Origin: Bacilli bacterium
GTDB lineage: Bacteria; Bacillota_I; Bacilli_A; RFN20; CAG-826
Reading direction: 5' to 3'
Assembly: GCA_017468925.1 (NCBI GenBank)
Contig: JAFUHI010000004.1
Location: forward strand, 1-64,000
DNA length: 64,000 bases
Of the stretch, positions 29,428-57,592 are shown one piece after another; position 1 is the first letter of the stretch, and every line of letters begins with the position of its first letter. The translations under genes were made by a program, and so were the position numbers. Below the pieces are notes generated by a model. It was not told where the DNA came from. It saw only the letters and a list, made by a program, of their open reading frames with translations, and made no database searches.

Positions 29428-29973
29428 ATGATGAAAGTAATTGTTATTGTTCTTGTGGCAACTGTGATATGCGTTGTGGCATTTGCCGTTGTTGATCGTG
29501 TCAGTTCGGATATAGTTGATCCGAGCACGAATGTCAATGTGAGCGCCAATTATGCCAATTCAATCACCGTAAGCATTGAAGGTGAAGTGAAGCATGAAGG
29601 CACATACACAGTCCCTTTATCGAGTGTTCTCGAAACTCTAATTGAAGCGAGTGGAGGGATCACAAGTAATGCGGATGAGTCGGCATTTGAAGTGTCTTAT
29701 GCCTTAAAAGATGGGGCGAGCTATTATATAGCTCCGCTTTATGACAACTCAAATGCTTGCGCTGTCACGCCGATTGATAAAATCAACATCAATTCGGCGG
29801 ATAAGGCTGGGCTTATGGGATTGTCATCAATTGGCGAGACCGTGGCATCCTCGATTGTGAGTTATCGTTCTACTAATGGGACTTTCCATGCGATCGAGGA
29901 ACTTATGAATGTCAGTGGCATTGGCCTGGCGACATTCCAAAAAGTTAAGAATTACGTTAAGTTACGCGGGTGA
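29428..29973 (+). CDS. comEA: Competence protein ComEA-like DNA receptor
   Basis: 181 residues. One N-terminal TM (VIVIVLVATVICVVAFAVV), an SLBB-like region (VSIEGEVKHEGTYTVPLSS) and a C-terminal double helix-hairpin-helix (ININSADKAGLMGLSSIG, VSGIGLATFQKVKNYV) that binds DNA. GGAGG precedes the ATG. Overlaps comEC by 4 bp. Confidence 0.9.
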   Translation: MMKVIVIVLVATVICVVAFAVVDRVSSDIVDPSTNVNVSANYANSITVSIEGEVKHEGTYTVPLSSVLETLIEASGGITSNADESAFEVSYALKDGASYYIAPLYDNSNACAVTPIDKININSADKAGLMGLSSIGETVASSIVSYRSTNGTFHAIEELMNVSGIGLATFQKVKNYVKLRG

Positions 29974-32117
29974 AAGGCTTCTACGCGTTCTTTGGATGCA
30001 TTGGATTCATCCTTGGTTGCGCATTCTTTAAATATCTCCATAGCATCAACATCGTAGGAATAATCATCCTATTTGTAGTGTTTCTCATCATTTCTTTCAA
30101 GAAGAGTCCCAGGATTGGCGTTTATTTTCTCCTAATCTTTGTATTCGTCTTCTCTATTATGTCTTTGCGGATTCCTCTTGAAGTTGGGGAAATGAGAACA
30201 TACACCGGGGTGATCATCGAGAAAAAAGAAAACTATTATGTGTTCTTATCCTCGTTCAATCGTTTCTACGTGTATGAGAAAGGGAGTGTTAGAGAAGTGG
30301 GTGATTTCCTTTCAATCCAAGGAAAAGCGAATGAATTGTCTTTCTATAGTGAGCAAAGCCAGTTTAATTTTGGAGAATATTTGAATGATAGGGGAGTTTA
30401 TTATGAATTAGTACCAACAGAAACAATCAAAAAATTTTTAAGACCAATTCGTTTGGAAGCGAATATAAAAGAATTTCTAACTGGCTTTAGCGTTGAGACC
30501 AGATCGCTATTGAACGCAATCTGTTTCTCGAAGGTGGATTATTCTTCTCCGGTAATCAGTGACTCTCAGTCTATGTCGCTACTTTTCGTTATTTCAGGAG
30601 GAGGTTTTCTGTATGGAGGCCTCCTCCGTTTTTTTGAGAAAATAATTGGAAAAAAGCTAGATGTAATCAAAACAAAATCTATTGTGTTCGCTATTGGAGT
30701 CGTGCTTCTATTGCCATTAGGAAATAAGGCTGGAATATACCGAGTCATATTAATCAGAGGGATAGAATTATATTCTTTAATAAGAAATAAAGATTTCACA
30801 AGATTCCAAATAATCTCCTATGCCGCCGCTATAATGCTTTTGCTAAATAGATTCTATGCCTTCGACCAGGGGTTTTTGATAGGTTTTGCCTGCTCATTTG
30901 CTTCCGCCTTGACTTCGCCATTATTCCTTGGGATGAAAAAGATCAAAAGGAAGATGGCAGCCAGATCTCTACAACTATTAATTATTTTTCCGTTGGCATC
31001 TAGCGAAGGCGAATATCATGTATTCAACTTCATTTATCTAATATTTTTCTCACCTTTAGTTATCGGGTTTGCAATATCTGGCTATCTTTCCTTCATCGGA
31101 TTGCCAATAAGAGGTTTTGTGGAGGGCTATGCTTTATTCATTCAAAACGTAATCAGCTTTTTAAAAACAATAGATTTTTCCTTGCCAATCTCTCTTAATG
31201 GGTTTTATCAGTCTTTGGGATATTATTCTTCAATCGTCGCTTTCTTGTTTCTATATGAGATAGGCTTTAAAAGGGCTGCGAAATATATCGCTTTGTTGTC
31301 ATCTCTTTCAATTATTCTATTATCATCGCCCTTGGGGAATGGAATAAGCCAGGAAGTGACTTTTATAAATGTTGGGCAAGGGGATGCGATATTGATTCGG
31401 GACGGATATAGAGCCGCGATGATAGATACAGGCGGAATATATGGCAAAGATATTGCAAAAGAAGTGGATATACCATTGCTCAAGAAACACAAAGTCTATT
31501 CTTTAGATTATTTAATAGCGAGCCATGGCGATTTTGACCATATAGGTGGCAAAGATAGCTTGATTGCAAATTTCAATGTCAAAAAATATATTGATGATAA
31601 GAGCTTTTTCCCGTTAAAAATGGGAGGCATTACTTTTGTAAATCACAATATATTCGATGGCAAGGATGAGAATGATAATTCATTAGTTCTCGAAGCGAAA
31701 ATCATGGGAAAGGTGTTTTTGTTTACGGGCGATGCCTCGATAGAAATAGAAAAGAAAATCATATCCAGGAATCCGGGTTTGGACGTGGATGTTTTAAAAG
31801 CAGGGCATCACGGATCAAAAACGAGTTCCTGCAAAGAGTTTCTGGAATGTATTACGCCCGAGGTGGCGATAATATCGTGCGGAAAAAACAACAGATACGG
31901 CCATCCACACAAAGAAGTCATCGAAAGAATGGAATCCATGGGAATAAAAATAAGAAGAACCGATTTGGAGGGGACAATTACATACAAAAAAACGATTTTC
32001 GAAAAAACATTGAATCTATATGAAGGGGGCTTCGTGTATAATAATCATTGGAATGATTACAGTTATTTATACCGAACAGCTCAGAATGGCCGAAAGCGCA
32101 GCAAAAGGCTTAATTAA
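29970..32117 (+). CDS. comEC: DNA uptake channel ComEC/Rec2
   Basis: 715 residues from a GTG that overlaps the comEA stop. Three N-terminal TMs, an OB-like extracellular domain (YTGVIIEKKENYYVFLSSFN), the competence membrane core (~170-460; degenerate around GGGFLYGGLLRFF), and a C-terminal metallo-beta-lactamase domain with SHGDFDHIGG, LFTGD and KAGHHGSKTSS. Takes single-stranded DNA across the membrane. No type IV pilus genes lie in the window. Confidence 0.92.
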   Translation: MKGFYAFFGCIGFILGCAFFKYLHSINIVGIIILFVVFLIISFKKSPRIGVYFLLIFVFVFSIMSLRIPLEVGEMRTYTGVIIEKKENYYVFLSSFNRFYVYEKGSVREVGDFLSIQGKANELSFYSEQSQFNFGEYLNDRGVYYELVPTETIKKFLRPIRLEANIKEFLTGFSVETRSLLNAICFSKVDYSSPVISDSQSMSLLFVISGGGFLYGGLLRFFEKIIGKKLDVIKTKSIVFAIGVVLLLPLGNKAGIYRVILIRGIELYSLIRNKDFTRFQIISYAAAIMLLLNRFYAFDQGFLIGFACSFASALTSPLFLGMKKIKRKMAARSLQLLIIFPLASSEGEYHVFNFIYLIFFSPLVIGFAISGYLSFIGLPIRGFVEGYALFIQNVISFLKTIDFSLPISLNGFYQSLGYYSSIVAFLFLYEIGFKRAAKYIALLSSLSIILLSSPLGNGISQEVTFINVGQGDAILIRDGYRAAMIDTGGIYGKDIAKEVDIPLLKKHKVYSLDYLIASHGDFDHIGGKDSLIANFNVKKYIDDKSFFPLKMGGITFVNHNIFDGKDENDNSLVLEAKIMGKVFLFTGDASIEIEKKIISRNPGLDVDVLKAGHHGSKTSSCKEFLECITPEVAIISCGKNNRYGHPHKEVIERMESMGIKIRRTDLEGTITYKKTIFEKTLNLYEGGFVYNNHWNDYSYLYRTAQNGRKRSKRLN

Positions 32118-55631: not shown

Positions 55632-55808
55632 ATGCCAGTAAAGACAGTCGTCAAAGAGAACGAATCATTGGATGAAGCTTTACGTCGCTTCAAAAGAAGC
55701 GTCAACAAGAGTGGTGTCCTTCTAGAATGCCGCAAAAGAGAAGCCTTCTTAAAAACCGGATTGAAGAGAAAACAAAAATCCGAGTTGGCTCGCCGCAAAA
55801 AGTGGTAA
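55632..55808 (+). CDS. rpsU: 30S ribosomal protein S21
   Basis: 58 residues, starting [20 protein letters not shown], then [19 protein letters not shown] and ending SELARRKKW; classic bS21. AAGGTGAT sits 8 nt before the ATG and a strong terminator follows. A single-gene unit, divergent from the GT2 gene. Confidence 0.95.
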
Positions 55809-55818
55809 TTCACCAATT

Positions 55819-55846
55819 AATCCTGGCCTAGCCGGGATTTTTTTTT
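55819..55846 (+). terminator. rpsU terminator
   Basis: AATCCTGGC (55819-55827) / GCCGGGATT (55831-55839), one G-U pair, then a long T run to 55846. Confidence 0.9.
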
Positions 55847-55899
55847 ATTTTCTTGTCAAAACTATGCATTTTTCGTGTATAAGAGGCATGAGACAAGAA

Positions 55900-57060
55900 A
55901 TGATTTATCAAAGCCAGGACAACACTTGTTCGCTCGCTGTCCTGAAAATGCTTATGGTCGATGCGAGCGGAGACAAAAGGTTTAAGTTCTATAAACCGAG
56001 GAAAGGCGGTCCGTATTCGTTGAAGGACGTAGAGACCATCGCAAAAGAAGAAGGGTTCCGCGTAACATTCAAAAAGGTAGAGGATAAGGAGGAAATAAAA
56101 AACAATACCGAATACCCTTTGTTTGTTACTTTCGAGGAAAATGGACTAGTTCACGCGGTAAAAGTGATCTCAGAGCGACTTGGCTATTTTCATATCGCCG
56201 ATCCTTCAAAAGGCAGATACAGCCTAAGCAAAAAGCAATTCATAAGCAAATGGACTGGAGTTTATGGCACGATAGTTAGAGAAAAAGAAATTGCTCCATC
56301 AAAAGACAAACTTGATTTGGTGCCAAAAAAGAATATTGCAGTTTTGCTTTTCGTGGAGCTTATTGCCATATCTTCTTTATTGGCTGGGATGTATTTCGTT
56401 GATGAAAATGGTAATTATTTAGTGCCAGTCATATGTTTTTCGGTTTTTGCCATAATGGAGATATTCAGAAGATCTCTATCGATTCGGTTCATGAAGAAGT
56501 TCGATGAAAAATGGCTTGAATACGTTTTTAATGGCAAAAACAAAAAGGACGCATGGGCTCGATATCATTCTCTTGAGAAAAACATATTCGCCTCTCCGAT
56601 GAATCTACTATCTTCAATAATCTCGTCGGTGTCGATTGTTTTGATCGGAGGGTTAAATGAACCATCGTTTTTCCTTTCCGCTGCATTAACAATAGGCGCG
56701 GTCGCTATAAAACAGGCATTTGATTCCTTCACAAAGGATAAACTAAAAGTCGTTTCGACATCAAAAGAGCAGGAATTATTCTCTAAAGGCGGAGGGATTG
56801 AGGAAGCTAAAGAAGTTAAAGCATACGGCTACAAATATGGTTCATATTTTTCATATGGCCAAATAATCACCGTGTTTTTGGTTCTTTGCTTTGCAATTAT
56901 CCCTCTCCTCCATAGTGGCCACATTTCCTTGAATTATTATTTGTTCCAATTCTTTGGCTTATTTGTTTTATCCTCGCTGCTAGAAAAGATTTTTGCCTTC
57001 GAAGAGGAATATATCGCTAGAGAAAAAGATTTGATGTATTTTTACGAATATTTGTCTTAA
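55900..57060 (+). CDS. C39 peptidase fused to a six-TM exporter-like domain, lacking an ATPase domain
   Basis: 386 residues from ATG 55900; ATG 55888 and 55864 are alternatives. A TTGTCA (55853-55858) / TATAAG (55878-55883) promoter, spacer 19, would start the RNA near 55890. Residues 1-130 are a C39 peptidase with Gln4, Cys10 (YQSQDNTCSLAVLKML), His85 (GLVHAVKVI) and Asp101 (FHIADPSKG). Residues ~140-370 hold six hydrophobic segments like an ABC exporter membrane domain. The protein stops where the nucleotide-binding domain should begin; no Walker A or ABC signature is present, and none lies in the bases after the stop. Bacteriocin exporters cleave GG leaders with this domain. Here the partner ATPase and substrate are unknown. 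Confidence 0.7.
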   Translation: MIYQSQDNTCSLAVLKMLMVDASGDKRFKFYKPRKGGPYSLKDVETIAKEEGFRVTFKKVEDKEEIKNNTEYPLFVTFEENGLVHAVKVISERLGYFHIADPSKGRYSLSKKQFISKWTGVYGTIVREKEIAPSKDKLDLVPKKNIAVLLFVELIAISSLLAGMYFVDENGNYLVPVICFSVFAIMEIFRRSLSIRFMKKFDEKWLEYVFNGKNKKDAWARYHSLEKNIFASPMNLLSSIISSVSIVLIGGLNEPSFFLSAALTIGAVAIKQAFDSFTKDKLKVVSTSKEQELFSKGGGIEEAKEVKAYGYKYGSYFSYGQIITVFLVLCFAIIPLLHSGHISLNYYLFQFFGLFVLSSLLEKIFAFEEEYIAREKDLMYFYEYLS

Positions 57061-57109: not shown

Positions 57110-57592
57110 ATGGAAATAGTTTTTTCTAACGAGATTGACGCCAAATACGACTTCTTGGAAGATTGTTACGAATCTCTGGCTAAGGTTACCGAAGAGGTTT
57201 TGTCGATCAAAAGTCTCTATGAAGTTGATGTGTCGTTGGTTGATGATGAAACTATTCATTCCATTAATCGTGATTATCGCGGAGTTGATCGAATCACTGA
57301 CGTCATATCTTTCGCCTTCAACGATGGAGTTGAGGAAAAAGATGCGATCAAGCCTCAGCCAGGCATGCCAATCATGTTGGGTGAGATATTGATTTGTTTG
57401 CCCCAGGCTTTAAGGCAAGCGAAAGAGATCGGCAACACCGAGAATCGTGAATTATTCTTCTTATTCATTCATGGCCTGCTTCATTTGCTCGGCTATGATC
57501 ATATGAAAAAAGAAGATGAGGAAATAATGTTTCCGTTGCAAGAGAAAATATTGCAGAAAGCGAGCCAAAATGGAAGTTTACGAACTGATTGA
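57110..57592 (+). CDS. ybeY: rRNA maturation endoribonuclease YbeY
   Basis: 160 residues. Zinc motif HGLLHLLGYDH with three His, plus YRGVDRITDVISFAF and GEILICLPQAL. Processes 16S rRNA 3' end and takes part in ribosome quality control. First gene of the ybeY-cdd-era-recO unit; overlaps cdd by 23 bp. Confidence 0.94.
   Translation: MEIVFSNEIDAKYDFLEDCYESLAKVTEEVLSIKSLYEVDVSLVDDETIHSINRDYRGVDRITDVISFAFNDGVEEKDAIKPQPGMPIMLGEILICLPQALRQAKEIGNTENRELFFLFIHGLLHLLGYDHMKKEDEEIMFPLQEKILQKASQNGSLRTD

Follow-up and report, generated by a model that had tools for sequence, protein, structure and literature searches.

The DNA analysed here, which we call the window, is a 64,000-nucleotide stretch from a Bacilli bacterium (assembly GCA_017468925.1, contig JAFUHI010000004.1, forward strand). 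It includes a gene, called C39M here, that encodes a 390-aa protein with a C39 peptidase domain followed by a six-TM exporter-type membrane domain and no nucleotide-binding domain (NBD). The gene is placed at 55888..57060; like all the features described within and around it, it is on the + strand. The first ATG of the open reading frame is at 55864, and the alignment of relatives puts the start at the ATG at 55888 or at the alternative start at 55900. Residues are numbered from 55888. An earlier note on this DNA, counting from 55900, had described the catalytic residues Cys10, His85 and Asp101 and the oxyanion Gln4 as intact; these residues are indeed present, as Cys14, His89, Asp105 and Gln8 once the start is moved.

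The upstream neighbor is rpsU (S21, 55632..55808). An intrinsic terminator (55819..55839; nine pairs, then a T-run) separates it from C39M, with a good match in the window and a form that can be recognized by eye across the genus. Beside the C39M start is a putative -10 element, TATAAG (55878..55883), which falls below the pass level of the sigma-70 scan. The suggestion that C39M has its own promoter is therefore plausible but weak: several relatives share a TATA-type box directly ahead of the start, but no site passed the sigma-70-like scan. Downstream, ybeY (57110..57592), the neighbor of C39M throughout the order, is followed by cdd and era, and no ATPase gene comes next, as previously described. 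The placement between rpsU and ybeY with no bacteriocin-like gene alongside also holds, a small double-glycine ORF being absent from the window. As a side observation, 15 housekeeping genes of the window leave the CGG codon nearly unused (1 codon versus 81 AGG and 197 AGA); an altered genetic code at AGG was considered and rejected, because AGG aligns mostly with Arg.

The peptidase domain (Pfam PF03412, 55897..56265) scores 39 bits against a Pfam cut-off of 22, and it is the sole C39 domain detected in the 80%-complete host assembly. In an alignment of 64 stand-alone C39M proteins, the catalytic Cys14 (codon TGT, 55927..55929) and His89 (CAC, 56152..56154) are kept in 64/64 and Asp105 (GAT, 56200..56202) in 62/64, the two exceptions being members of family f5. 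The oxyanion Gln is present in 60 of 63 aligned relatives. The earlier note had named absence of triad conservation as evidence against its reading; these counts show the reverse. Most of the sequence has diverged to 18-34% identity (about 20% among relatives) while the active site was kept, and dN/dS in close pairs is about 0.03-0.15, resembling that of the neighboring recO. Judged from the sequences, then, the peptidase is intact and under selection rather than decaying. Given the conserved active site and the low dN/dS, C39M can be regarded neither as a relic nor as the product of a recent truncation.

A search for relatives finds stand-alone C39M in 35/61 genomes. With a profile built from 26 orthologues, the same C39-TMD arrangement without an NBD, which the earlier note had proposed looking for, is found in 253/279 genomes and 48/56 genera of the host's order, probably GTDB RFN20. 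The open frame is mostly about 390-450 aa among the matches listed (about 370-450 aa in the main clade), and the gene is normally single-copy in the order. Within its own genus, C39M is flanked by the rpsU and ybeY regions, with an extra gene inserted on one side in a few species. In other genera rpsU is sometimes absent, and ybeY-cdd-era-recO-glyQS-dnaG is nearly always found downstream. C39M is thus a near-universal core gene of the host's order. Relatives in phage or plasmid records were sought with no match, and an origin from such elements was rejected on that basis. It is extremely improbable that C39M is a relic or an annotation artefact, a decaying truncated exporter. The NBD has been lost, and in a few copies (L054/L184, L052) a frameshift or an assembly gap splits the gene, but the locus is fixed across the order, the active site is kept and dN/dS is low.

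Two observations concern other genes in these genomes. The genes that some relatives have between rpsU and C39M were considered as possible substrates and rejected, since they vary among species, encoding surface, lipoprotein-like or DnaB/DnaI-like proteins. In two cases (L058:4108-7182 and L059:3849-6986) the encoded proteins are large and of surface type, their C-terminal domain resembles Hint/intein (the Pfam match in L058 is weak, below the cut-off), and the small protein next to them bears a SipW-like signal. Separately, an ordinary 720-730-aa C39 exporter with an ATPase is present in some members of the same family as well (L163:4484-6655 in G262); the second matches in G269, G251 and G139 are likewise separate exporters of this kind.

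The membrane domain of C39M (56344..56994) is homologous to the transmembrane domain (TMD) of PCATs. Family-averaged hydropathy gives TM windows at residues 153-171, 175-193, 238-256, 261-279, 326-344 and 351-369. In hhalign, the C39M family matches PCATs over 397 columns, covering C39 and six TMs, with 99.8% probability, and the match stops at the TMD-NBD boundary. PCAT1 (4ry2) is matched at 3.7e-14. The NBD is absent from the window protein and from the aligned stand-alone members. The description of a C39 peptidase with an exporter-like membrane domain and no ATPase is thus borne out. A comparison of folds with PCAT1 is only partly informative: the best Foldseek matches are PCAT1 and C39 domains, but the underlying structure model, made from a three-row alignment, is poor (mean pLDDT 50.5, mostly 47-86 in the C39 region).

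Parts that would engage a motor are reduced as well. Relative to PCATs, the TM2-TM3 cytoplasmic loop (ICL1, 56467..56598), the usual site of coupling helix 1, lacks about 12 residues, and the TM4-TM5 loop (ICL2, 56725..56862), the usual site of coupling helix 2 and home to the conserved Glu294, lacks about 24. We take the shortened stretches to coincide with the positions of coupling helices 1 and 2 in type I exporters. The ICL1 span from D206 to E230 has 22-30 residues in families f1, f3 and f5, versus 34-37 in full-length and degenerate-NBD proteins; the ICL2-TM5 span from E294 to L352 has 53-63 versus 82-85. Among stand-alone members, full-length coupling-helix loops are seen only in family f8, whose proteins (429-433 aa) lack the NBD but have loops near full length (ICL1 37, ICL2-TM5 76-77).

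These loops bear most directly on whether C39M could be half of a split exporter, working with an ABC ATPase encoded elsewhere to drive ATP-dependent export of its substrate. The retention of a six-TM domain homologous to exporter TMDs speaks for this, as do the f8 loops. It is mainly the loss of residues from the two NBD-docking loops in the main clade (f1, f3, f5) that argues against an ATPase acting in trans; in addition, other families are down to one TM or none, and no ATPase gene steadily adjoins C39M. We consider a split exporter unlikely. Neighbors of roughly 550-585 aa in f2, f6 and f8 were examined as candidate ABC ATPases and rejected, being Na/Pi cotransporters or an aminopeptidase.

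Full-length C39-TMD-NBD proteins of about 650-690 aa are encoded in the slot ahead of ybeY elsewhere in the class, in orders other than the host's. Such proteins occur in Mycoplasma-like genomes (L154-L158, L180, L181), which read TGA as Trp, and in family f20 (L151-L153, L182); in family f17, the full-length exporter gene is often near rpsU rather than before ybeY. Two tested Mycoplasma-like proteins exceed the cut-off of the NCBIfam model NF045998 (744.9 and 554.9 bits versus 500). The same model also scores best for the L154, f20 and f17 proteins (260-330 bits) and, among NCBIfam models, for the window protein (28.8 bits, versus the cut-off of 500), f3 (36.6) and f8 (112.5). The criterion of orthology used here is the shared slot upstream of ybeY, not that of the NF045998 model. 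In a tree of C39 plus TMD, the f1, f3, f5 and f4 proteins form one set (SH-aLRT 99); a wider and weaker set (82) adds f2, f6, f8 and the Mycoplasma proteins, with many long branches and unsure deep joins.

Relatives with an in-frame ATPase, which the earlier note had regarded as a sign of recent truncation, do exist, but outside the order, pointing to an ancient truncation. C39M is best read, from these sequence comparisons, as an ancient motor-less positional counterpart or descendant of an Mbov_0121-type PCAT. Reduction goes further in other occupants of the same slot: the f2 proteins, at 167-170 aa, comprise C39 and one TM, the only f4 protein, at 120 aa, is C39 alone, and both keep Cys-His-Asp. 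C39M suggests that evolution retains the peptidase rather than transport.

Outside the order, a 565-aa C39 exporter (L149:6145-7842, in G442 of f17) has an NBD without a Walker A motif that Pfam does not recognize, apparently an independent loss of the motor. A small gene lies between the full-length exporter and ybeY in Mycoplasma-like genomes (L154:8153-8509; L156:5567-5950, - strand; L157:8526-9029; L158:8792-9232). It encodes 118-167 aa with one N-terminal TM and belongs to no Pfam family, and is possibly a shortened accessory (membrane-fusion-like) subunit.

What C39M would cleave can be approached from its surroundings and its binding groove. A search for double-glycine precursors, as the earlier note had recommended, finds none near C39M in the window, and none of the 18 motif matches in the 80%-complete host assembly is credible. 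Two positions of the PCAT1 leader-binding groove were mapped onto C39M by our own alignment: the equivalent of A55 is always a large hydrophobic residue, and the equivalent of I59 is variable in both groups. With this pattern a leader-like substrate is plausible, although its motif may differ, and the substrate of C39M probably lacks a canonical double-glycine leader. A role as a substitute prepilin peptidase was rejected: ComGB/T2SSF is found in 7/117 genomes and prepilin peptidase A24 in 6/117, yet C39M is near-universal. The window itself contains ComEA- and ComEC-like genes (29428-32117), though the order is mostly without ComGB and prepilin peptidase.

CtaG is a C39-like amide-forming enzyme, and the C39 fold of C39M might similarly perform other acyl-transfer chemistry, as a ligase or transamidase. 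Weak Foldseek matches to CtaG (E 4e-3, from the low-confidence model) point in this direction. So does a proposal for protein 0401 of JCVI-syn3A, a C39 protein: Breuer et al. suggested lipoyl-lysine import and transamidation, and reconstruction and transposon data have led to a proposal to remove 0401 (PMC6609329). Mycoplasmas, moreover, have no double-glycine precursor (PMC6609329), which fits with the searches of the window and host assembly described above. On the other side, the closest matches of C39M are true peptidase domains, and import machinery is absent from its TMD. Acyl transfer is in our view quite unlikely.

PCAT1 offers a guide to how a peptidase of this kind might work with no motor. 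Without ATP, PCAT1 is inward-facing with the peptidase docked, and ATP-driven closure of the NBDs undocks the peptidase from the core, blocking uncoupled cleavage (PMC8794836). NBD closure cannot occur in a protein that has no NBDs, and C39M would therefore be expected to stay inward-facing, peptidase-docked and competent for cleavage. We favor, with some confidence, the reading that C39M is a motor-less descendant of an exporter and acts as a leader peptidase that is anchored in the membrane, independent of ATP and locked in the cleavage-competent state. It would be a cysteine peptidase, probably dimeric, whose C39 domain works at the cytoplasmic face without ATP and, at the membrane, clips the leader off a protein or peptide that is conserved in the cell; the clipped product would then leave by another route, or stay. 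Of the possibilities raised by the earlier note, a membrane-embedded leader peptidase fits best, and an ATPase encoded elsewhere is disfavored by the shortened docking loops and the lack of a steady ATPase neighbor; C39M could also be a new regulated-proteolysis device.

The retained six-TM domain and the charged residues conserved in its loops (D206, position 230 and E294) exceed the needs of an anchor, and so the membrane domain may do something more, such as serving as a conduit or delivering substrate. Another reading would make C39M an ATP-independent exporter, whose TMD passively conducts the cleaved product under the drive of folding, binding outside or membrane potential. The TMDs of PCAT1 do form a conduit that is large and lacks a specific site for cargo, the leader being held by the C39 domain (PMC6959990), and most of the order retains six TMs. 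However, the same slot can be filled by C39 with one TM or by C39 alone, and it is not evident how an inward-facing exporter could open outward without NBDs; export of this sort seems improbable. If instead C39M is the anchored leader peptidase that we favor, it might belong to a new class of C39 proteases that are embedded in the membrane and independent of ATP, derived from an exporter by stepwise stripping of the motor and acting in a conserved housekeeping pathway, in keeping with its place in the core of the order and a probable orthologue among the genes of the minimal cell. This broader proposition is tentative, and we would give it somewhat less than an even chance. Either way, C39M is a natural experiment on the type I ABC exporter fold without its ATPase.

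Among the known systems closest to C39M is the Mbov_0121 family (NF045998). Both have homologous C39 and TMD regions and, in Mycoplasma-like genomes, the same locus upstream of ybeY-era, and a precursor peptide is known for neither. The Mbov_0121 proteins (about 650-680 aa) have an NBD and full coupling loops, whereas C39M has neither, and the small one-TM gene that follows the Mycoplasma copies is absent in the window. The family probably takes in JCVI-syn3A 0401; in that cell 0405 is glycyl-tRNA synthetase (PMC6609329), and the numbering of the C39 protein and the synthetase is consistent with the C39M gene order. C39M thereby links 0401, an uncharacterised protein kept in a minimal cell, with a gene from the core set of a large order of uncultured gut bacteria. 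FapD-type stand-alone C39 endopeptidases (NF058616) are also C39 peptidases without an ATPase, but C39M scores 14.9 bits against that model's cut-off of 330, has a six-TM exporter domain and lies near no Fap genes. With PCAT1 and ComA, C39M has in common the N-terminal C39 domain, the triad, the oxyanion Gln and the six-TM exporter domain; it differs in its missing NBD, shortened coupling loops, lack of an adjacent double-glycine precursor and status as an order-wide, single-copy core gene. The peptidase of C39M would be PCAT-like in its working, yet with no NBD and no docking loops the protein falls outside PCAT membership.
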